From positions 310,001 through 374,000 of the forward strand of contig NZ_AAYB01000002.1 of NCBI RefSeq assembly GCF_000169435.1: a stretch of 64,000 nucleotides of DNA, in the 5' to 3' direction. The notes under the pieces are model-generated. The model did no database searches and was not told the origin of the DNA. It saw nothing but the letters and a program-made list of their open reading frames with translations. This stretch comes from Roseobacter sp. CCS2 (GTDB taxonomy: Bacteria; Pseudomonadota; Alphaproteobacteria; Rhodobacterales; Rhodobacteraceae). A program made the translations under genes and the position numbers. Shown piece after piece: positions 13,736 to 33,549 of this stretch (position 1 is its first letter; every line of letters begins with the position of its first letter).

Positions 13736-13748
13736 TCGTGATCACAAA
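13736..13748. promoter_or_regulatory. Candidate operator, palindrome GTGATCAC, before the GntR gene
   Basis: The core GTGATCAC lies at 13738-13745 in the context TTCGTGATCACAAA, ten bases upstream of the GntR start codon. The same extended palindrome occurs in tandem upstream of sucC and sdhC. A regulator site this close to its own start codon suggests autoregulation. Only a single copy is present here. Confidence 0.55.
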
Positions 13749-13754
13749 TGACCT

Positions 13755-14405
13755 ATGATGATCCAACCGCGCCCCCAAGATAGCACCACCGCTGCGCATG
13801 AACGCGTCTATCGGGCGATGCGTACAAAGATCATGCATGGTGAAATTGGCCCGGGTGAGGCGCTTACACTGCGGGGCATCGGCAAGACGTATGATGTGTC
13901 CATGACACCCGCGCGAGAGGCCGTCCGACGGTTGGTGGCTGAGGGCGCGTTATTCTTGTCATCATCTGGCAGGGTATCGACACCCGCGTTGTCAAACGAG
14001 CGGATTGAAGAACTGGCGACGCTGCGTGCATTGCTGGAACCGGAACTTGCATCGCGCGCCCTGCCGCGGGCCCACTTTGCGTTGATCGAACGGTTGGAAA
14101 CGATCAACCAAGGGGTCAATCAGGTGATCGCCCGCCACGATGCGACGGGGTATATTCGCATGAACCTGGAATTTCACCGGACCCTCTATTTGCGTGCGCA
14201 GGCACCGGCGATGTTGGCGATGGCTGAAACGGTATGGCTCCAACTGGGGCCTACAATGCGCGCGCTTTATGGTCGGTTAAATCGGACAGAACCGCCGTAT
14301 CATCACAAGCTGATCCTATCCGCGCTCAAAGCGGGGGATGAGCCGGGATTGCGTTTGGCGGTCCGGGCCGACGCCACACAGGGCTTGCGGATGCTCAAAG
14401 GCTAG
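13755..14405 (+). CDS. GntR family transcriptional regulator (FCD domain)
   Basis: A 216-aa regulator. The N-terminal winged helix (residues 15-75) has the GntR pattern VYRAMRTKIMHGEIGPGEALTLRGIGKTYDVSMTPAREA with the R-x8-L and PVREA-like signature. The C-terminal half is an all-helical FCD effector domain with the expected metal/ligand residues around EFHRTLY and YHHKLILSAL. Two ATGs at 13755 and 13758 are equally possible. The GTGATCAC palindrome just upstream and its tandem copies at two TCA operons make it a candidate regulator of those operons, probably responding to a carboxylic acid. This is an inference from site sharing. Confidence 0.9.
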   Translation: MMIQPRPQDSTTAAHERVYRAMRTKIMHGEIGPGEALTLRGIGKTYDVSMTPAREAVRRLVAEGALFLSSSGRVSTPALSNERIEELATLRALLEPELASRALPRAHFALIERLETINQGVNQVIARHDATGYIRMNLEFHRTLYLRAQAPAMLAMAETVWLQLGPTMRALYGRLNRTEPPYHHKLILSALKAGDEPGLRLAVRADATQGLRMLKG

Positions 14406-15447: not shown

Positions 15448-16836
15448 TTAGGCGTGAATAGCACCATCGCCACAGGCAAGTGCGGCTTCGCGCACGGCCT
15501 CGGAATAGGTCGGATGCGCGTGGCACGTCCGCGCGAGGTCTTCTGCGGCGGCGCCGAATTCCATCGCGACGCAAATTTCGTGGATCAGATCACCCGCCAT
15601 GGGACCGATGATATGCGCGCCAAGAATGCGGTCAGTGCTGGCATCGACCAGAATTTTGACAAACCCGTCGCCTGCAAAATTGGCCTTTGCGCGGGCGTTG
15701 CCCATGAAGGGGAATTTGCCGACTTTGTACTTACGGCCCTGTTCTTTCAGGGTTTCTTCGGTTTCGCCTACATTGGCGACCTCTGGGTGGGTATAGATCA
15801 CGCCGGGGATCACGCCATAATTCACATGCGGGTGCTGGCCTGCGATGCCTTCGGCCACGGCCATGCCTTCGTCTTCGGCTTTATGCGCCAGCATGGGGCC
15901 AGCGATGGTGTCGCCGATGGCGTAAATGCCTTTGACATTGGTCGCATAACGGTCGTTGGTTTTGATCTGACCACGGTCTGACATTTCAACACCAAGCGCA
16001 TCGAGGCCAAGGCCGTCTGTGAAAGGTTTGCGCCCTGTGGCGACCAGTACAGTGTCAGCTTGCAGCGTGTGTTCGCTGTCGTCTTTGCGCATTTTGTAGG
16101 TGACCGTGGCTTTGTTTCCTTTAACGGTCACGCCTTGGACGGCGGCGCCGAGGGTGAACTTAAGTCTTTGCTTCGTCAGCATTTTCTGGAACTGACGCGC
16201 GATCTCGGCGTCCATGCCGGGGGTGATGGCGTCGAGGAATTCGATGACCTCAACCTCGGCACCAAGGCGGGCATAGACAGAACCCAGCTCCAGCCCGATG
16301 ACGCCTGCGCCGATGACAGCGAGCTTTTTGGGCACTTTGCCCAGTTCAAGCGCGCCTGTGGAGGTGACAACTGTCTTTTCGTCCACTTCAACGCCGGGCA
16401 GGGAGGATGCCTCGGACCCTGATGCGATCACGATATGCTTGGCCTCATGGACTTCATCACCCACTTTGACTTTGCCTGCCTCGGGGATTGATCCCCAGCC
16501 TTTCAGCCAGTCTATCTTGTTCTTTTTGAACAGAAATTCGATGCCGCCGGTGTTTTGGGCAATCGTTTCATCCTTGTAAGTCAGCATCTGCTTCCAATCG
16601 ACGGAAGGTGCTTTGCCCTTTAGGCCCATGGTTGCAAAATTATGCTCTGCCTCATGCAGCATATGGGTGGCGTGCAGCATCGCTTTGGATGGAATGCAGC
16701 CTACGTTCAGGCAGGTGCCGCCCAGCGTTTCGCGCCCTTCGACGCAGGCCACTTTCATACCCAATTGGGCGCAGCGGATTGCACAGACATAGCCGCCGGG
16801 GCCGGCGCCGATTACGATGACATCATAGCTGGACAT
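15448..16836 (-). CDS. lpd: Dihydrolipoyl dehydrogenase (E3)
   Basis: A 462-aa FAD-dependent disulfide oxidoreductase that reoxidises the lipoyl groups of 2-oxoglutarate dehydrogenase. It has FAD motif GAGPGGY at the N-terminus, redox-active cysteines in [16 protein letters not shown] (about residues 40-50), a NAD-binding [17 protein letters not shown], the second FAD contact [20 protein letters not shown], and the C-terminal catalytic His in [10 protein letters not shown]. The start at 16836 follows AAGGAG. It is the last gene of the minus-strand suc/odh operon. Confidence 0.95.
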
Positions 16837-16897
16837 GGTCGTCTCCTTGGGTGGCACAACGCGTACACATGCTGTGCACACCCTGTACATACGTTGG

Positions 16898-18024: not shown

Positions 18025-19218
18025 TCACAAATCCATCAACAACCGCCGTGGGTCCTCAAGCGCTTCTTTCACACGCACAAGGAACGTCACCGCCCCTTTG
18101 CCGTCCACGATCCGGTGGTCGTAGGACAGGGCCAGGTACATCATGGGCCGGATCACGACTTCTCCGTTAATCGCCATCGGGCGGTCCTGGATTTTATGCA
18201 TGCCAAGGATGCCGGACTGTGGCGGGTTCAGGATGGGGGATGACATGAGCGAGCCATAGACGCCGCCGTTCGAGATGGTGAAGGTGCCACCTTGCATTTC
18301 CGCCATGCTCAGCTTGCCGTCGCGCGCTTTGGCGCCCATTTCGGCGATGCTTTTCTCGATGGTCGCAAACGACATCTGGTCAGCGTCGTTGATCACCGGC
18401 ACCACCAGGCCTGTTGGCGTGCCTGCGGCGATGCCCATGTTGACGTAGTTTTTGTAGACCACGTCCGTCCCGTCGATTTCGGCGTTCACCTCTGGCACTT
18501 CGTTCAGGGCGTGCACGCAGGCCTTGGTGAAGAAGGACATGAAGCCCAGTTTGACGCCATGTTTTTTCAGGAACAGGTCTTTGTACTCGGTGCGCAGGGC
18601 CATCACCTCGGTCATGTCGACCTCGTTATAGGTGGTCAGCATGGCGGCGGTGTTCTGGCTGTCTTTCAGACGCTTGGCGATGGTCTGGCGCAGGCGTGTC
18701 ATCTTGACCCGCTCTTCGCGTTCCGCCTGATCTGCGGCGACGGGCGCGCGCGGGGCTGGCGCCGAAGAAGGCGCGGGAGCGGCTGATGAGAGCGCGTTGA
18801 GCACATCCTCTTTCATCACGCGGCCGTCCTTGCCGGTGCCTTCGACATCTTTCAGGTCATTCTCGGCCATCAGTTTCTTCGCTGATGGGGCGTCTTCGAC
18901 GTCTTTTTCGGCGGTATCGGCGGGTTGCTCATCGGCCTTTGGGGCCTCTTCGCTTTTCTTTGCAGGCGCTGGCGCGGCGTCACCTTCGGCGATTTGGGCC
19001 AGCAATGCATCAACGCCGACCGTTTCGCCTTCGGCGGCTACGATTTCTGACAACGTGCCAGCGATTGGGCTTGGCACCTCAACCGTCACCTTATCGGTTT
19101 CCAGTTCGCACAGCATTTCATCGACAGCGACGCTATCGCCGGGCTGTTTGAACCATGTGGCGACTGTGGCCTCTGTCACGGATTCGCCAAGGGTTGGGAC
19201 GCGGACTTCGGTGCTCAT
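18025..19218 (-). CDS. odhB: Dihydrolipoyllysine-residue succinyltransferase (E2 of 2-oxoglutarate dehydrogenase)
   Basis: A 397-aa E2 subunit. An N-terminal lipoyl domain carries the lipoylated Lys in [11 protein letters not shown] (about residue 43), followed by an Ala/Pro/Glu-rich linker. A peripheral-subunit-binding domain ([25 protein letters not shown]) then leads to the catalytic domain, which ends in the active-site motif [13 protein letters not shown]. It transfers succinyl groups to CoA. The stop of sucA and the start of odhB overlap (TAATG), so the two are coupled. Confidence 0.95.
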
Positions 19219-22175
19219 TACTTTGTTCCTTTGATGGTCAGCGCATCATCGACGAGGGCTGCTTGTTGTGCTTTGTGCTGGCTGGCAAGGCCCGTGGCAG
19301 GGCTGGCCGCAGCGGCGCGCCCGGCATAGACGGGCCGTGTGTGTTTGGCTTTGATGCGTGTCAGGACCCATTCGATATTGGGTTCCATGAATGACCACGC
19401 ACCTTGGTTTTTGGGTTCTTCCTGGCACCAGACCATTTCAGCGTTTTTGAACCGGGTCAGTTCGTTGACCGCCGATTGCGCGGGGAACGGATAGAACTGT
19501 TCGTAGCGCATGATGTAGACGTCTTTGATGCCGCGCGCGTCGCGTTCTTCCAGCAGGTCGTAGTAGACTTTGCCGGAACACATGACGACACGTTTGATTT
19601 TGTCGTCGGCGGCCAGTTTGGTGTCAGAGTTGCCCTGTTGCGCATCGTCCCAAAGGACGCGGTGGAAGGATGATCCGGTGGTAAATTCTTCGCGCTTGGA
19701 CACCGCCATTTTGTGCCGCAACAGCGATTTTGGCGTCATCAGGATCAGCGGTTTGCGGAAGGTTCGGTGCAACTGACGGCGCAGCAGGTGAAAGTAGTTT
19801 GCAGGCGTCGTGCAATTGGCCACGATCCAGTTATCGCCGCCGCACATGGTCAGGAACCGTTCCAGACGCGCGGATGAGTGTTCGGGGCCTTGCCCTTCGT
19901 ATCCGTGCGGCAGCAGGCAGACGAGGCCGGACATGCGCAACCACTTGCTTTCGCCTGAGCTGATAAACTGGTCGAACATGATCTGCGCGCCATTGGCGAA
20001 GTCGCCGAACTGCGCCTCCCATAGCGTCAGTGCATTGGGTTCGGCCAGCGAATAGCCGTATTCGAAACCCAGCACCGCATATTCAGACAGCATCGAGTCG
20101 ATGACTTCGTAGTTCGCCTGACCCTCGCGGATGTGATTGAGCGGGTAGTAGCGTTCTTCGGTGTTCTGGTCGATCAGCGCGGAATGACGGTGGCTAAACG
20201 TGCCGCGCGTACTGTCCTGACCGGACAGGCGCACCGGATAACCCTCAGTCAGCAAAGAGCCGAAAGCCAGCGCTTCGCCGGTGGCCCAGTCGATGCCTTC
20301 GCCGGTATCGAACATTTTCGCCTTTGCATCGAGTAGACGGCCGACTGTTTTGTGTAGCGGAAAGTTGTCCGGCGCTTTCGACAGCGCCTCACCCACGGCA
20401 TTAAACGTCGCATCCTCAATCGCGGTGACACCGCGTTGATAATCCTCGTCCTTGCGATCAAGGTGTGACCACTTGCCATCCAGCCAGTCAGCTTTGTTGG
20501 GTTTGAAGTTCTTACCGGCTTCGAATTCTTCATTTAGGTGCGCCTGAAAGGCGGCCTTCATGTCTTCGATTTCGCCTTCGGGGATCAAACCGTCACTAAC
20601 CAGCCGTTCGGTATAAAGCGTCAGCGTTGTCTTCTGCTTCTTGATCTTCTTGTACATCACCGGGTTGGTGAACATCGGCTCATCGCCTTCGTTGTGACCA
20701 AAGCGGCGGTAGCAGATGATATCCAGCACCACATCCTTGTGGAATTTCTGGCGGAATTCGGTGGCGACACGGGCGGCGTGCACGACCGCCTCTGGATCGT
20801 CGCCGTTCACGTGGAAAATCGGGGCTTCAACCATCAGCGCGATATCTGTGGGGTAGGGGCTGGAGCGGCTGAAATGCGGGGCTGTGGTGAAACCGATCTG
20901 GTTGTTCACGACGATATGCATGGTGCCGCCGGTTCTGTGCCCTTTGAGGCCGGACAGACCGAACCCTTCGGCCACAACGCCTTGACCTGCAAAGGCCGCG
21001 TCGCCGTGTAGCAATACGCCCATGACGCGGGTGCGGTCGGTGTCTTTCTTCTGGTCCTGTTTGGCGCGGACCTTGCCCAACACAACCGGGTTCACAGCTT
21101 CGAGGTGGCTTGGGTTTGCTGTTAGCGACAGGTGGACGGTGTTGTCATCAAAGCTGCGGTCTGACGATGCGCCCAGGTGGTATTTTACGTCACCTGATCC
21201 GTCGACGTCTTCAGGTTTGAACGACCCGCCCTGGAATTCGTTGAAAATCGCGCGGTAAGGCTTTTCCATCACATTCGCCAGAACGGATAGACGGCCACGG
21301 TGCGGCATGCCGATTATAATCTCATCAAGGCCCAGCTGCCCGCCGCGCTTGATGATCTGCTCCATCGCGGGGATCAGGCTTTCGCCGCCATCAAGGCCAA
21401 AACGTTTAGTACCCATGTATTTGACGTGCAGGAATTTTTCGAAACCTTCAGCCTCAACAAGGCTATTCAGGATCGCCTTGCGTCCGTTTTTGGTAAAGGC
21501 GATTTCCTTGCCGTAGCCTTCGATCCGTTCCTTCAGCCACCCGGCTTCTTCGGGGTTGGAAATGTGCATGTATTGCAGGGCGAATGTGCCGCAATAGGTA
21601 CGTTGCACGATGGCGATGATGTCGTTCATCGTCGCCACTTCGAGGCCGAGGACGTTGTCGATGAAAATCGGGCGGTCCATGTCGGCGGCGGTGAAGCCGT
21701 AAGAGGCCGGGTCCAGTTCAGGATGCGGTTTCTGATCGCGCATGCCCAGCGGGTCAAGATCGGCAATCAGGTGGCCGCGAATACGGTAGGCGCGGATGAT
21801 CATCAGCGCGCGGATACTATCAAGGACGGCGGCGCGGACCTGTTCTTCGGAGAGTGACACGCCTTTTTCGGTGGCTTTGTCTTTGATCTTTTTACCTGCG
21901 GCTTCCGGTTCGGCTGGCCACTGACCATCAAGGGCTGCGGTCAGATCATCGGCCGGGGCAGGGGGCCAATCGGTGCGCGCCCATGATGGACCGGTGGCTT
22001 CGGCCTTGGCATCGGCAGGGGCATCGCCCAAAGACCGGAAGAACGCCTGCCAGCTTTCATCAACGGCACCGGGGTTGTCGGCGTAACGGGCGTAGAGTTG
22101 CTCCACATACTCTGCGTTGTGCCCTTGCAGGAAGGATGAGGCATGGAAGACGTCGTTGGGGGATTGGTCGTTCAT
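19218..22175 (-). CDS. sucA: 2-oxoglutarate dehydrogenase E1 component
   Basis: A 985-aa thiamine diphosphate-dependent E1. The N-terminal subunit-interaction segment ([23 protein letters not shown]) and the TPP/E1 landmarks [40 protein letters not shown] and [16 protein letters not shown] are all present. Length is normal for alphaproteobacterial SucA. It decarboxylates 2-oxoglutarate and passes the succinyl group to OdhB. Its start overlaps the stop of the upstream exported-protein gene (ATGA). Confidence 0.97.
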
Positions 22176-22765
22176 TTCGATGCCTCCTGGGCAGACGATG
22201 TTGAAGATATGAAGCGGGTCGAGCTGTAGACGACAGACACGTCAACTATGCTATCGACCAACTCACTTAACTTTGCTGAATCCAGATTGTTTTTGTCATA
22301 CCAACCGTCAGAGAGTTCAGTTCTTTGAGTGTCAGAGATAATCTCAGGTGACGCTGTTTCGACTGACTGCTCAGACAAGGCCGCCGCGCAGTAAAAGATG
22401 TAACCGTCATCGTTTCCCGGTACGCTTTTCCTGAGCATCAAAGTATCTCTGCCGCGTTCGAACGTACGCACTGCTTCGTTGTGGGCGCTATCGAGTTGAG
22501 TGAGGCGGCTTGACACACTTGATGCTTGGTTCGCAAACCACTGAGGATTGAGCTGTGATGCGGACCAAGCGCTTTTGCTCTTGTCCAAAAGAGCCCAACT
22601 CATGTTGCGTGCCTGAGCACCAGATAAAACACTTACCTGGTGCCAACCATCGTTTTCAAGCGATACCAACGCCTCTTCAAAGCTTCGGGCCTCAATACAC
22701 GCAGAAGGTGGTTCAGCAGTCGCCTGACTAGCAAAAGAGGCGCAAATGATGGCCGCCCTTAACAA
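22172..22765 (-). CDS. Unknown exported protein between sucD and sucA (TTG start)
   Basis: A 197-aa protein. The only usable start is TTG at 22765, immediately after and in frame with the sucD stop codon; GGAAG about 14 bases upstream could serve as ribosome binding site. From this start the product opens with a signal peptide (LRAAIICASFASQATA, cut before EPPSACIEAR), which supports the call. The mature protein is Ser-rich with two Cys (SACIEAR, YIFYCAAA) and no recognised domain. It ends in an ATGA overlap with sucA, so it is embedded in the operon. Confidence 0.65.
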   Translation of the reverse strand: MLRAAIICASFASQATAEPPSACIEARSFEEALVSLENDGWHQVSVLSGAQARNMSWALLDKSKSAWSASQLNPQWFANQASSVSSRLTQLDSAHNEAVRTFERGRDTLMLRKSVPGNDDGYIFYCAAALSEQSVETASPEIISDTQRTELSDGWYDKNNLDSAKLSELVDSIVDVSVVYSSTRFISSTSSAQEASK

Positions 22766-23647
22766 TTACCCAATCGCTTCCAGCACAGCCTCGCCCAGCG
22801 TTGCGGGGCTGTCGGCTACCACGATGCCCGCGGACTTCATCGCTTCGATCTTGCTTTCTGCGTCACCCTTGCCGCCTGCGACAATCGCGCCGGCGTGGCC
22901 CATGCGGCGGCCGGGAGGGGCGGTGCGCCCGGCGATAAAGCCGGCTGTTGGCTTCCAGCGCCCTTTTTTCTTTTGGGCGGTCAGGAATTCGGCGGCTTCT
23001 TCTTCGGCGGACCCGCCGATTTCGCCAATCATGATCATGGAATGGGTTTCATCGTCGTCTAGAAACATGTCCAGCACGTCGATATGTTCGGTCCCTTTGA
23101 TGGGATCGCCGCCGATGCCCACAGCGGTGGACTGGCCCAGCCCGCTGTCGGATGTCTGCTTGACCGCCTCATATGTCAGCGTGCCGGAGCGGGACACAAC
23201 ACCGACCGATCCGCGTTTGTGGATGTGGCCGGGCATGATGCCAATTTTACAGGCGTCGGGTGTAATCACGCCGGGACAGTTGGGGCCGATCAGGCGGGAT
23301 GTTGAGCCTTCGAGCGCGCGCTTGACCCGCATCATATCCAGAACAGGGATGCCTTCGGTGATGCAGATGATCAGTTCCATTTCGGCGTCGATCGCCTCGA
23401 GGATACTGTCAGCCGCGAAGGGTGGGGGCACGTAGATGACAGAGGCGTTGGCCTCGGTCTTGGCCATCGCCTCGTGGACCGAGTTGAAGATCGGCAGGTC
23501 CAGATGCGTCTGACCGCCTTTGCCGGGGGTCACGCCGCCGACCATTTTGGTGCCATAGGCGATGGCCTGTTCAGAGTGAAATGTCCCCTGCGACCCGGTA
23601 AGGCCTTGGCAGATGACGCGTGTGTTTTCGTTTACGAGAATGGCCAT
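22766..23647 (-). CDS. sucD: Succinyl-CoA synthetase alpha subunit
   Basis: A 293-aa alpha subunit. The CoA-binding Rossmann domain is at the N-terminus ([21 protein letters not shown]) and the phosphorylated His is in [18 protein letters not shown] (about residue 250). It makes succinate, CoA and ATP from succinyl-CoA with SucC. The start at 23647 has GAAGGACC upstream; longer in-frame starts are not supported by homology. An uncharacterised lipoprotein gene separates it from sucC. Confidence 0.96.
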
Positions 23648-23711
23648 TTTTGGTCCTTCGTCTAAATTTCTGTACGCAAAGTCAATTTGCTTCTCAATGT
23701 TTTCGTTCGCG

Positions 23712-24137
23712 TCAACCGCGAACGATTCCAAGTTGATATGTGCCAGCACCAGCGCCGTTCACTACACCCAGTTGTAAGAGGAGGTTGCCGCGTGGATAGC
23801 CCACTAGGCGTGATGCAATCCCAGCTGATCGCATAGGTCCAAAACGTTGTCCAAGAGTTGAGGAAACATTCACGTTTTCCGGAGCCCGCGCGCGCATGGA
23901 GCAAACCGTCAGACCTTCCGAAGTTTGGTCAATGTTGAAAAGAAATGGATCATCAGGAGCATCTGTTTTTCCATCAAGGCAAACCGCTTCGAATTCCCTT
24001 AAACCATCATCCAAAGACGTAACAGGCAGAGCGCGAATGACCTCTGCTTGGGATGGCCCAGAGGCACTTTCGCAAGCGCTCACTAAAGTAGCTGCTGCGA
24101 CCAATGGTGCAATTTTTCCTAGTATAGACTTCGACAT
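23712..24137 (-). CDS. Unknown lipoprotein between sucC and sucD
   Basis: A 141-aa predicted lipoprotein with a short signal peptide ending in the lipobox LVSAC (Cys at about residue 22), followed by a Ser-rich linker. The mature domain has a Cys pair ([19 protein letters not shown]) that could form a disulfide and a Gly-rich C-terminus. The start codon overlaps the sucC stop (TGATG), so translation is coupled. No domain is recognised. Confidence 0.75.
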
Positions 24138-25330
24138 CACCCCTTCACCGCCTTCACGATCTTCTCAGCGCCATCCTTCAAATCATCCGCTGCGATCACA
24201 TCGACGTCGCTTTCGTTGATGATCCGCTTGCCTTCTTCGACGTTTGTGCCTTCTAGGCGCACGACAAGTGGGACTTGCAGCCCGACTTCTTTGACGGCTG
24301 AAACAACGCCCTCGGCGATCACGTCGCAGCGCATGATGCCGCCGAAGATGTTCACGAGGATGCCTTTGACCTGCGGGTCAGAGGTGATGATTTTGAACGC
24401 CTCGGTGACTTTTTCTTTGGTCGCACCGCCGCCGACGTCGAGGAAGTTGGCAGGCTCGGCCCCGTAGAGTTTGATGATGTCCATCGTCGCCATGGCAAGA
24501 CCTGCGCCGTTGACCATGCAGCCGATTTCGCCGTCGAGCGCGATATAGTTGAGGTCGAACTTGGAGGCGGCGAGTTCTTTGGGATCTTCTTCTGTCTCGT
24601 CCCGCAGGGCGGCGACATCAGCGTGGCGGTAGACAGCGTTGCCGTCGAAGGCGACTTTTGCATCCAGCACTTTCAGGTCGCCGCCGTCGGTGACGATCAG
24701 CGGGTTGATTTCCAGCATCTCCATGTCCTTCTCAACGAAGGCTTTGTAGAGGTTGCCCATCAGGGCGACGCATTGTTTGACCTGATTGCCGGTGAGGCCC
24801 AGCGCGAAGGCGACGCGGCGTCCGTGGAACGCCTGATAGCCTGTTGCGGGATCGACGGTGAAGTTGAGGATTTTCTCTGGCGTGTTTTCAGCCACTTCCT
24901 CGATGTCCATGCCGCCTTCGGTGGAGCAGACGAAACCAATGCGGCTGGTGGCGCGGTCAACGAGCAAGGCGAGGTACATTTCTGTTTCAATGCCAGAGCC
25001 GTCTTCGATGTAGATGCGGTTGACCTGCTTGCCTGCAGGACCCGTCTGGTGCGTGACCAATGTGCGGCCCAGCATTTTCTTGGCTTCTTGGGCTGCTTCT
25101 TCCACGGATTTAGCCAGACGCACACCGCCTGCTTCGCCCGCGTCGGCCTCTTTAAACTTGCCTTTGCCGCGTCCGCCTGCATGGATTTGTGCTTTGACGA
25201 CCCAAAGTGGCCCGTCCATTTCGCCAGCGGCTGTTTTGGCGTCTTCGGCGCGGGTGACAGGGCGACCGTCGGAAACGGGCGCGCCATAGCTGCGCAACAA
25301 AGCTTTGGCCTGATATTCGTGAATGTTCAT
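24137..25330 (-). CDS. sucC: Succinyl-CoA synthetase beta subunit
   Basis: A 397-aa ATP-grasp beta subunit. Family landmarks include [16 protein letters not shown] at the start, [14 protein letters not shown] (about residue 46), [14 protein letters not shown] and the C-terminal [18 protein letters not shown] and [13 protein letters not shown]. It is the first gene of the minus-strand suc-odh-lpd operon. A pair of GTGATCAC palindromes lies about 100-130 bp upstream of its start, in the divergent intergenic region. Confidence 0.97.
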
Positions 25331-25426: not shown

Positions 25427-25461
25427 TTTGTGATCACAGGTTTTTTTGCTGTGATCACAAA
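25427..25461. promoter_or_regulatory. Tandem GTGATCAC operator upstream of sucC
   Basis: Two palindromes with cores GTGATCAC at 25430-25437 and 25451-25458 are spaced exactly 21 bp start to start (two helical turns), each flanked by T or A to form TTTGTGATCACA and TGTGATCACAAA. A T-rich spacer separates them. The same arrangement with the same spacing is found upstream of sdhC. It could serve sucC, the divergent glycosyltransferase gene, or both. Confidence 0.75.
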
Positions 25462-25533
25462 TTGCTATGTGTCTTGATTCTGATCAAGTTTATTCTGTTT
25501 TTAAAGATTCGCTATAATGGTAGCAAAGTTGTT

Positions 25534-26564: not shown

Positions 26565-27764
26565 TTAGTTCAACACAATCATGTAAAGTCCGGCGTCGCC
26601 CCCCAGCATCCGCTGGAACTGTGTAAGGCTGCGGCCAGACATGCGGGTGCCTTCTTCCAGGTAAGGCAGTACGCCTTCACCCTGAATGATCGCGATGATG
26701 TCGATCTCGGGCGGGTTTTGCATGGCTTTGGCAAGGTTGATGCCAGCGCCATCACCCAATCGCCAATGCGGGATCAGCAGATCACCTTTCAGGACTGCCT
26801 CTGCCTCGGCCAGAACCATGCGCCATTGGCTGCCCACGTCTGCGGGGAATTCCAGCGGGAGGGCGCTGGTCTGGTTGGGGTTGGGGATCCATTCCAGTTT
26901 ATTGTCGGTTTCTGCGGCAACGCGTGACCAAAAGGTTTGGTTATCCGCAATCATTCCCAGAAAATGGGCGTGTGCGGCGCGGCTGCGTTCCACATCAGGG
27001 CGGCCTTCAATGGCGTGGATAAACATCGCGACGACGTCGATCCAGTTGTCTTCATCTGGCATAAAGACCATTTGTCGTCCGCCATCGTTAAAGGCATCCA
27101 TGGCGGCGGCACTTTCCGTCACGCGGGTAATGGCAGAGGTGGGATCAAGGGCCAGAACAGTCTCGCTTACGCCCGACAACAGGTGCGCATAGGCCGACAG
27201 CCATGCAGCATCTGAGGTATCAAAGCGCACAACCGGCGGGGTTAATGTATCATCAAGGCGGCGGTTGAGTTGTGAAGCCGCCACTTCAAGCACGCCTTCG
27301 CCCGCGTCGCGCGTGCTGTTTGCGTTAATATCGAACCACAGATCAGCGGTGTTGATGGTTACGCCGACATCGTCGGTGTCTGTGATCGTGTCGAGTGCCG
27401 CGAGGCTGCCTTTGAGATCATCAAGTGCTGCGGCGAATGTGCTGGCGATCACTTCGGGCTGGAACGGCACGGCATCCGGGTTTGGCGGCAACGGCAGGCG
27501 CAGAAAGGGTAGGTCGCTCATTTCCGCCATCTCGCGGTTGATTTGCGTGGCGTAAAGCGTTTGCAGCGCGCCTTCGACGGCGCCCAGAAAGCGGACGCCG
27601 CCGAGTGCGAATTGGTCGGATGCGGTTGGGTTTGGAAGCGCTGACAAGTTGGCCTCGGTTGTGGCAAGACCGTTTTGGGCAATCATCGCGGAATAGTCGG
27701 TTTCGGCGTTGGCTGTGGTGGCGAGTGTTAAGCTGGCCAAGGCGATGGTGGCGGCGATACGCAT
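26565..27764 (-). CDS. Secreted/periplasmic protein of unknown function
   Basis: A 399-aa protein with a clear signal peptide (MRIAATIALASLTLATTANA, cut before ETDYSA) and an ideal ribosome binding site (AAGGAG) before the ATG. The mature part is acidic, alternates helical and Asp-rich stretches, and includes a possible calcium-binding loop DINANSTRDAGEGVL. I do not recognise a family. It lies downstream of mdh on the same strand but is separated from it by a strong terminator. Confidence 0.75.
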   Translation of the reverse strand: MRIAATIALASLTLATTANAETDYSAMIAQNGLATTEANLSALPNPTASDQFALGGVRFLGAVEGALQTLYATQINREMAEMSDLPFLRLPLPPNPDAVPFQPEVIASTFAAALDDLKGSLAALDTITDTDDVGVTINTADLWFDINANSTRDAGEGVLEVAASQLNRRLDDTLTPPVVRFDTSDAAWLSAYAHLLSGVSETVLALDPTSAITRVTESAAAMDAFNDGGRQMVFMPDEDNWIDVVAMFIHAIEGRPDVERSRAAHAHFLGMIADNQTFWSRVAAETDNKLEWIPNPNQTSALPLEFPADVGSQWRMVLAEAEAVLKGDLLIPHWRLGDGAGINLAKAMQNPPEIDIIAIIQGEGVLPYLEEGTRMSGRSLTQFQRMLGGDAGLYMIVLN

Positions 27765-31869: not shown

Positions 31870-32891
31870 TCAAGACGAACACAGGCCGTTTTTTTGAGGA
31901 CTACGCCGTGGGTGATGTGATCACCCACGCGGTGCCCCGCACGATTTCCGGGGGCGAGCGGGCGATGTATCATGCGCTTTATCCCGCACGTGGGGCGCTT
32001 TATTCTTCGGATGAGTTCGCACGCGCCTGTGGATTGCCCGCTTCACCTGTCGATGATCTGATCACGTTTCATACCGTTTTCGGCAAGACCGTTCCGGATG
32101 TGTCGTTGAACGCGGTGGCCAACCTTGGCTATGCCGAGGGGCGCTGGCTGCGTCCGGTTTATCCCGGCGACACGCTGGTGTCGCAGTCCGAAGTGATTGG
32201 GATAAAGCAGAACTCCAACGGGAAATCTGGTGTCGTGTGGGTCCGTACCACCGGGCGCAATCAGCATGGTGAAGAGGTTCTGAACTACGTGCGCTGGGTG
32301 ATGGTGCGTAAATACAAGACAACACCTGCGCCGCATCCAGTCATCCCGGAATTGGCGGCTGCGGTCGCCGCGTCTGATATCGTTGTGCCTGACGGCCTGA
32401 CCTTTGCGGCGTATGATTTTGCCCTTGCCGGAGAGCCGCATCGTATGTCGGATTATGCGGTGGGTGAGATTATCGACCATGTCGATGGTGTGACGATTGA
32501 AGAGGCTGAACATATGCTGGCCACCCGCCTGTGGCAGAACACGGCGAAGGTGCACTTTGATGCGAAAAACCGCCCGGATGGGAAGCGGTTGATCTATGGC
32601 GGCCATGTAATCTCGCTGGCGCGGGCGCTGTCCTTCAATGGATTGGCCAATGCGCAGATGATCGTGGCGTTAAATGCAGGTGCACACGCGAACCCTTGTT
32701 TTGCGGGTGATACGGTGCGCGCGTGGTCAGAGGTGCTGGATAGGGCAGAGACAGACACGCCGGGTGTCGGTGCGATCCGGTTGCGCTTGGTGGCGACCAA
32801 AGGCGATGCAGGGGTTTTGCGCGGGGACGACGGCAAATATCATCCGGACGTGCTGCTTGATCTGGATTACTGGGCCTTGATGCCAGCCTGA
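31866..32891 (+). CDS. mch: Mesaconyl-CoA hydratase (beta-methylmalyl-CoA dehydratase)
   Basis: A 341-aa double hot-dog MaoC-like enzyme. The N-terminus GRFFEDYAVGDVITHAVPRTISGGE and the second-half motif VGEIIDHVDGVTIEEAEHMLATRLWQNTAKVHFD match the mesaconyl-CoA hydratase family rather than simple enoyl-CoA hydratases, and length agrees with the Rhodobacter enzyme. It interconverts mesaconyl-CoA and beta-methylmalyl-CoA in the ethylmalonyl-CoA pathway. The operon with mcl2 and the nearby ecm and ccr genes give strong context. Confidence 0.9.
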   Translation: MIKTNTGRFFEDYAVGDVITHAVPRTISGGERAMYHALYPARGALYSSDEFARACGLPASPVDDLITFHTVFGKTVPDVSLNAVANLGYAEGRWLRPVYPGDTLVSQSEVIGIKQNSNGKSGVVWVRTTGRNQHGEEVLNYVRWVMVRKYKTTPAPHPVIPELAAAVAASDIVVPDGLTFAAYDFALAGEPHRMSDYAVGEIIDHVDGVTIEEAEHMLATRLWQNTAKVHFDAKNRPDGKRLIYGGHVISLARALSFNGLANAQMIVALNAGAHANPCFAGDTVRAWSEVLDRAETDTPGVGAIRLRLVATKGDAGVLRGDDGKYHPDVLLDLDYWALMPA

Positions 32892-32991: not shown

Positions 32992-33026
32992 TTTGTGATC
33001 ACAGATTTTTCGAGTGTGATCACAAG
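32992..33026. promoter_or_regulatory. Tandem GTGATCAC operator upstream of sdhC
   Basis: Two palindromes with cores GTGATCAC at 32995-33002 and 33016-33023 are spaced exactly 21 bp, with flanks TTTGTGATCACAG and TGTGATCACAA and a T-rich spacer. This matches the sucC element almost base for base outside the spacer. It lies about 140-170 bp upstream of sdhC, in a 274-bp non-coding region. Confidence 0.75.
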
Positions 33027-33165
33027 TAATAAAAACTTAATCAGACGCGACCATTTTTCACGCTATTAGCCTGTCAGTTGGCGTGACTCTCCTGATGGAA
33101 TGGTGCAATAAGACTATCAAAGGCGTCGTCTTGCCGGACGACACATGCCAACGAAGGGAACTGTT

Positions 33166-33549
33166 ATGGCTGACGTGAACCGGGGCAATCGCCCGCTTTC
33201 ACCGCATTTGACGATCTATCGTCCGCAATGGACGTCAATGTCCTCAATTCTGGTTCGGATTACCGGCAATGCGCTGATTGTCGCCGCGCTGATGATCGTG
33301 TGGTGGTTTGTGGCGGCGGCGGCGGGGCCAGATGCATTCGCAACTGCCAATGGGTTCGTGACCAGCTGGTTTGGCGATCTGATCATGACCCTTTCGGTAT
33401 TGGGTCTTTGGTATCACCTGCTGGGCGGTTTGCGCCATTTGGTGTGGGACAGCGGACGCATGCTGGATGTTGATAAGTCAGAGCTTGCCGCGCAGATGAT
33501 GGTTGTGCTGTCAGTTTTGCTGACAATCTTTACCATCGTTGTTGTGTAA
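33166..33549 (+). CDS. sdhC: Succinate dehydrogenase cytochrome b556 subunit
   Basis: A 127-aa membrane anchor with three helices. The family motif RPLSPHLTIYRPQ is at the N-terminus and the haem-ligand region YHLLGGLRHLVWD is in the middle. The start at 33166 (GAAGGGA upstream) is chosen over the in-frame ATG at 33145. It begins the sdhCDAB operon behind the paired palindromes. Confidence 0.95.
   Translation: MADVNRGNRPLSPHLTIYRPQWTSMSSILVRITGNALIVAALMIVWWFVAAAAGPDAFATANGFVTSWFGDLIMTLSVLGLWYHLLGGLRHLVWDSGRMLDVDKSELAAQMMVVLSVLLTIFTIVVV

Follow-up and report, generated by a model that had tools for sequence, protein, structure and literature searches.

A conserved pair of GTGATCAC palindromes before sucC and sdhC in Rhodobacteraceae, most likely the composite operator of an AkgR-type GntR regulator

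Imam, Noguera and Donohue are said to have reported in 2015 (mBio) that AkgR is a GntR protein which activates citric-acid-cycle genes. As far as the accessible part of PMC6365646 goes, AkgR of Rhodobacter sphaeroides is a transcriptional activator, and GTGATCAC is among its binding sites. In the same part of that source, PS417_07240 of Pseudomonas simiae, which is 32% identical to AkgR and belongs to a deoxyribose cluster, is proposed to bind GTGATCAC at positions −47 to −40 relative to where its own gene is predicted to begin (PMC6365646). PdhR is also a member of the GntR family; it is pyruvate-responsive, and its regulon includes sdhCDAB in Shewanellaceae, according to the accessible part of PMC5343134.

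The window, that is, the whole stretch of 64,000 nucleotides of Roseobacter sp. CCS2 analysed here, contains GTGATCAC eight times against 1.17 expected, and none of 100 shuffles reached as high as eight. First of all, two exact copies stand before sucC (25430–25437 and 25451–25458) and two before sdhC (32995–33002 and 33016–33023). In both pairs, 13 bp lie between the cores and 21 bp between their centres, which is about two helical turns, and within each core the half-sites GTGA and TCAC are directly adjacent, with no gap. The sequence agrees with an earlier sequence-only reading, which had described paired palindromes 21 bp apart before sucC, with cores at 25430 and 25451 that each extend to TGTGATCACA. 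When up to three mismatches were allowed, the spaced pair was found six times in the window against 0.25 expected, a count as high as six being reached by none of 100 shuffles; only the sucC and sdhC pairs among these six are exact, and one of the remaining four overlaps the sdhC pair. In the whole genome of Roseobacter sp. CCS2 there are three exact N13 pairs, and with up to three mismatches the pair has 70 matches vs 5 for the reversed control, among which weaker targets are possible.

Several other occurrences in this genome were set aside. The third exact N13 pair (C6:130097) is probably due to chance: it is located inside a SurA-like open frame, its outer flanks are not A/T-rich, and neither copy reaches TGTGATCACA. 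The window cores at 31917, 35680 and 50821, the first of which was inspected in detail, were also taken as chance occurrences, being located inside open frames and having no partner 21 bp away at up to three mismatches. In addition, six single TGTGATCACA sites are found in the genome outside the two pairs, and none was taken as regulatory. Three of them are within open frames (L002, L003 and L004), one is within an AcrB-like gene (L188), one is within a photosynthetic reaction-centre gene on contig 11 (L189), and one is at the junction of two open frames (L001). The contig 11 locus has two photosynthetic reaction-centre genes, so that Roseobacter sp. CCS2 may live as an aerobic phototroph.

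The genes next to the operators are listed in Table 1. The distance from the dyad to the start codon in the window is 114 bp at sucC and 136 bp at sdhC. There is a divergent glycosyltransferase-like gene at 25462, and its control was rejected as the main function of the pair; in a tblastn comparison of 77 family loci, a match adjoins the pair in three loci alone, namely the window's own, L014 and L153, and at none of the sdhC pairs. Two open frames on the minus strand can also be mentioned, namely one of 197 aa (22175–22765) between the sucD-like gene and sucA, which has no Pfam or NCBIfam match, and one of 399 aa (26565–27764), which has no Pfam match.

Table 1. Coordinates of the operators, the probable regulator and the neighbouring genes in the window
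Feature	Positions	Strand	Basis
sucC composite operator, TTTGTGATCACA-N11-TGTGATCACAAA	25427..25461	-	sequence; kept before sucC in relatives
sdhC composite operator	32992..33026	+	sequence; kept before sdhC in relatives
Single GTGATCAC core, probable autoregulatory site	13738..13745	+	sequence; same position in most relatives
GntR-family, FCD-domain regulator; probable AkgR-type, predicted operator binder	13755..14405	+	Pfam; co-occurrence
CGTGAC element, putative part of a -35	33082..33087	+	kept in relatives, about 66 bp downstream from where the proximal core at sdhC starts
sucC, succinate--CoA ligase beta subunit; first gene downstream of the sucC operator	24137..25330	-	Pfam/NCBIfam
sucD-like CoA-binding/ligase gene, sucC cluster	22766..23749	-	Pfam
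sucA, 2-oxoglutarate dehydrogenase E1	19218..22175	-	Pfam
sucB-like 2-oxoacid dehydrogenase acyltransferase	18025..19218	-	Pfam
Dihydrolipoamide-dehydrogenase-like gene, sucC cluster	15448..16890	-	Pfam; named after its domains and location
sdhC, succinate dehydrogenase cytochrome b subunit	33145..33549	+	Pfam/NCBIfam

Most genomes sampled from the family have the pair. In a sample of 295 Rhodobacteraceae genomes from 294 genera, a pair of exact cores at any spacing from 0 to 30 was found in 267 genomes, and the reversed control pattern was found in one. The exact N13 pair is present in 249 of the 295; 18 of the 46 genomes without it have some other pair, which is N12 in 16 of them, so that 265 genomes have an N12 or N13 pair, and the two with other spacings only are G061 (N5 and N14) and G201 (N8). 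The gene context was followed in 77 family pairs, which are part of those listed and include the window's own pairs. Among them, 69 are N13, four are N12 and four have other spacings (N5, N10, N19 and N23), none of these last four being before sucC or sdhC. The 73 N12/N13 pairs precede sucC in 37 cases, sdhC in 33, sucA in one (L031) and fumC in one (L141), and the remaining one is located within an open frame in the genome from which the window was taken (L115). At fumC, the pair and the start of the longest frame overlap, but the lyase domain comes after the pair, and the true start is probably located downstream. The dyad-to-start distance in the family is 111–165 bp at sucC and 101–185 bp at sdhC. 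The sequence-only reading had named absence of the pair before sucC orthologues in relatives as a refutation; the outcome speaks against it, since the pair is found throughout much of the family at both sucC and sdhC. The fixed geometry serving two citric-acid-cycle operons, which had also been claimed, is confirmed.

In a class-wide draw of 385 genomes, the pair was found in 29, of which five belong to the family and have two or three pairs each, at N12/N13; in the 24 others it is sporadic and its spacing is scattered. The reversed control matched two genomes in this draw, one of them 42 times. One genome outside the family (G440; L161, 992–1900) has an N13 pair directly before a GntR/FCD gene that adjoins a TonB-dependent receptor gene, and the paired arrangement may serve another use there. 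Within the family, the 2.6-Mb genome G265 has ten core pairs at 0–30 bp, two of which are N13.

The window also encodes a candidate regulator, a protein with a GntR winged helix at its N-terminus (E 2.3e-12) and an FCD domain at its C-terminus (E 1.2e-17), both above the curated cut-offs; the NCBIfam search returned no model above its cut-off. Twenty orthologues are 78–95% identical to this protein, and their DNA-binding region is nearly unchanged. A single GTGATCAC core is located 17 bp before its start codon, and this position is largely kept. In 80 relatives whose regulator locus was collected, one of which (L081) is cut at the start and was left out (n = 79), an exact core occurs within 200 bp upstream in 64 of 79 loci, and 58 of the 65 upstream cores are 16–20 bp before the matched regulator start, the background being 25 cores per 898 kb elsewhere in these loci. 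The exact upstream core is missing from 15 of the 79 loci, four of which have a core with one mismatch.

The pair and this regulator gene come and go together in the family. Regulator matches at E<=1e-30 were found in 274 of the 295 genomes; at this threshold, 264 genomes have both regulator and pair, 10 the regulator only, 3 the pair only and 18 neither (n = 295; Fisher p 6e-19), and at E<=1e-70 the corresponding numbers are 260, 5, 7 and 23 (p 2e-23), both p-values being too small because related genomes are not independent. The three genomes that have the pair without a regulator match at E<=1e-30 are G096, G256 and G264 (77, 93 and 77% complete), the last of which was assigned to the regulator-lacking class by elimination, and in four more, G019, G033, G114 and G273, the pair is accompanied by a weak match only (1.2e-39 to 3.4e-55, and 5.8e-32). 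Seven genomes with a strongly matching regulator lack an exact N12/N13 pair (G040, G291, G147, G155, G166, G061 and G201). In two of them, G040 and G291, an N13 pair with one mismatch is present upstream of sucC. In three others, G147, G155 and G166, the true sucC was not found, so they are uninformative on the coupling, and two of the three are poorly complete.

Among the 28 pair-lacking family genomes, 25 have a SucC match, which by identity (73–86%) is the true sucC in 22; in G021, G147 and G166 the match is only a paralogue at 50–53%. Apart from G040 and G291, the remaining 20 pair-lacking genomes with a true sucC gave no pair with fewer than three mismatches, and weak regulator matches are found in four of the 20 (G054, G101, G195 and G281). 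In G017, which is without the regulator, there is an N12 pair with three mismatches, a level reached by 1.5% of shuffles, and it is perhaps a relic. In a SucC tree of 68 rows, 16 of them regulator-lacking, whose bootstrap had not settled, the regulator-lacking state is scattered, with 10 changes by parsimony, at least four of which are forced by well-supported branches; some regulator-lacking genomes, on a separate supported branch, may never have had the system. Both the core at the regulator's own gene and the co-occurrence agree with the predicted recognition of GTGATCAC by this protein, and the putative link of the pair to the GntR gene of the window, which the earlier reading had suggested, is strongly supported by these two lines of sequence evidence.

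The flanks of the cores suggest how the pair is read. In 70 pairs (140 outer and 140 inner flanks), whose loci were picked for exact cores and whose flanks were unselected, A/T stands at both flank positions 2 and 3 in 119 of the 140 outer flanks vs 19 of the 140 inner ones, and AAA occurs in 83 outer vs 6 inner flanks. The rule is strong at sucC (69/74 outer vs 8/74 inner) and weaker at sdhC (50/66 vs 11/66). At the regulator gene, the 64 single sites have A/T-rich flanks on either side, whereas in the pair A/T is on the outer side only, which indicates that the pair is read as one unit. In addition, the 66 N13 spacers share a pattern: they mostly begin and end with A/T, G/C is more frequent at the two positions that follow inwards from either end, and the middle is again rich in A/T. 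This pattern has its centre of symmetry at the dyad and shows more clearly at sucC than at sdhC.

As for the promoters, a consensus sigma-70 promoter was found at neither window locus, as would be expected of an activated promoter, and this is weak evidence given that the shuffle means are only 0.7 and 0.2. At sdhC, CGTGAC (with at most one mismatch) occurs in 28 of 33 sequences, in 23 of the 33 at 65–67 bp counted from where the proximal core starts, and the dyad is about 73 bp before it. It is followed by AAA and then a TAnnAA-like block, of which the window's own version, the -10 candidate, is poor. CGTGAC may be the -35 element or the site of another regulator. At sucC, a CGTTTA-like element (with at most two mismatches) is located at 52–53 in 24 of 37 sequences, a count biased towards that place by the way in which ties were broken, although TTT is also present there in ungapped columns; aligning the sequences brought out no clear -10 element at a fixed position. 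If the CGTGAC and CGTTTA-like elements are -35 elements, the operator would be located upstream of the promoter, which is the place of an activator.

Taken together, we consider it quite probable that the AkgR-type GntR/FCD regulator uses the pair as a two-site operator, activating sucC and sdhC from upstream. One dimer of the regulator would bind each GTGATCAC core, and since the cores are two helical turns apart, both dimers would be on the same face of the DNA, where they would probably touch each other across an A/T-rich, bent spacer and bind cooperatively. The bound pair, upstream of the weak sucC and sdhC promoters, would most likely activate transcription, so that the part of the citric acid cycle from 2-oxoglutarate to fumarate would be tied to one signal, carried by a presumed ligand. 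For the single site in front of the regulator gene, the most likely role would be negative autoregulation. The only pointers to an activating role in this analysis are the geometry and the missing consensus promoters.

It is also conceivable, although unlikely in our judgement, that the same GntR protein represses sucC and sdhC through the pair and is released by a metabolite of the citric acid cycle. Many GntR/FCD proteins are repressors, the family is known largely for them, and a repressive role would suit the single site close to the start codon of the regulator gene. However, the dyad is 101–185 bp from the start codon and, at sdhC, well before CGTGAC, neither locus has a consensus promoter, and AkgR is described as an activator in the accessible part of PMC6365646. 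That the two cores are independent sites without functional coupling is given very little credence: the single cores used at the regulator gene speak for it, but the distance between the paired cores hardly varies, being 21 bp or, less often, 20 bp, and their flanks follow a one-sided pattern that is mirrored across the middle of the pair.

The least probable of the readings, and a highly improbable one, is that TGTGATCACA is bound by a different regulator, such as one of the Crp/Fnr kind. The half-site TGTGA does resemble that of Crp, but the half-sites of Crp/Fnr sites are several bp apart, with a gap of 6 bp for Crp, while those of the window cores adjoin each other; moreover, the site upstream of the GntR gene and the joint absence of gene and element tie the two together.

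A broader proposal is put forward tentatively, its chances being a little short of even. There may be a family-wide operator code, consisting of two palindromes 20–21 bp apart with outer A-tracts, inner flanks richer in G/C and an A/T spacer centre. A GntR/FCD tetramer, that is, two dimers on bent DNA, would read this code, a lone core flanked by A/T on either side would mediate autorepression, and the number of sites would decide between activation and repression.

The element is real and conserved and is most likely the composite operator of an AkgR-type regulator, judging from sequence comparisons. It would be the likely operator through which one regulator, the probable switch, controls the succinyl-CoA and succinate steps in 265 of 295 genomes of an abundant family, and it would allow a sharp test of how two sites at a fixed distance let a GntR/FCD protein act as an activator. 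The sequence-only reading knew of no description of the element. The core is not new, since GTGATCAC has already been reported for AkgR (PMC6365646, accessible part), and the kind of regulator is known as well. As for the arrangement, neither the fixed 21-bp pair nor the one-sided flank pattern was found described in the parts of the literature searched, and the original AkgR paper may show the pair.

Compared with the described systems, the differences are as follows. For PS417_07240, one site is mentioned in the accessible part of its source, and the target is a catabolic cluster, not the citric acid cycle. PdhR is alike in being a GntR regulator over sdhCDAB and different, as far as the accessible text goes, in being pyruvate-responsive. 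The operator of PdhR also differs from the paired GTGATCAC element. McbR (PDB 4p9f) is the closest solved structure by sequence (E 6.8e-18), yet it is distant from the window regulator, and its regulon is different. The window regulator is likened to AkgR: it belongs to the GntR family as well, its putative sites have the GTGATCAC core, and its predicted targets are citric-acid-cycle genes, judged by the position of the pairs before sucC, sdhC, sucA and fumC.
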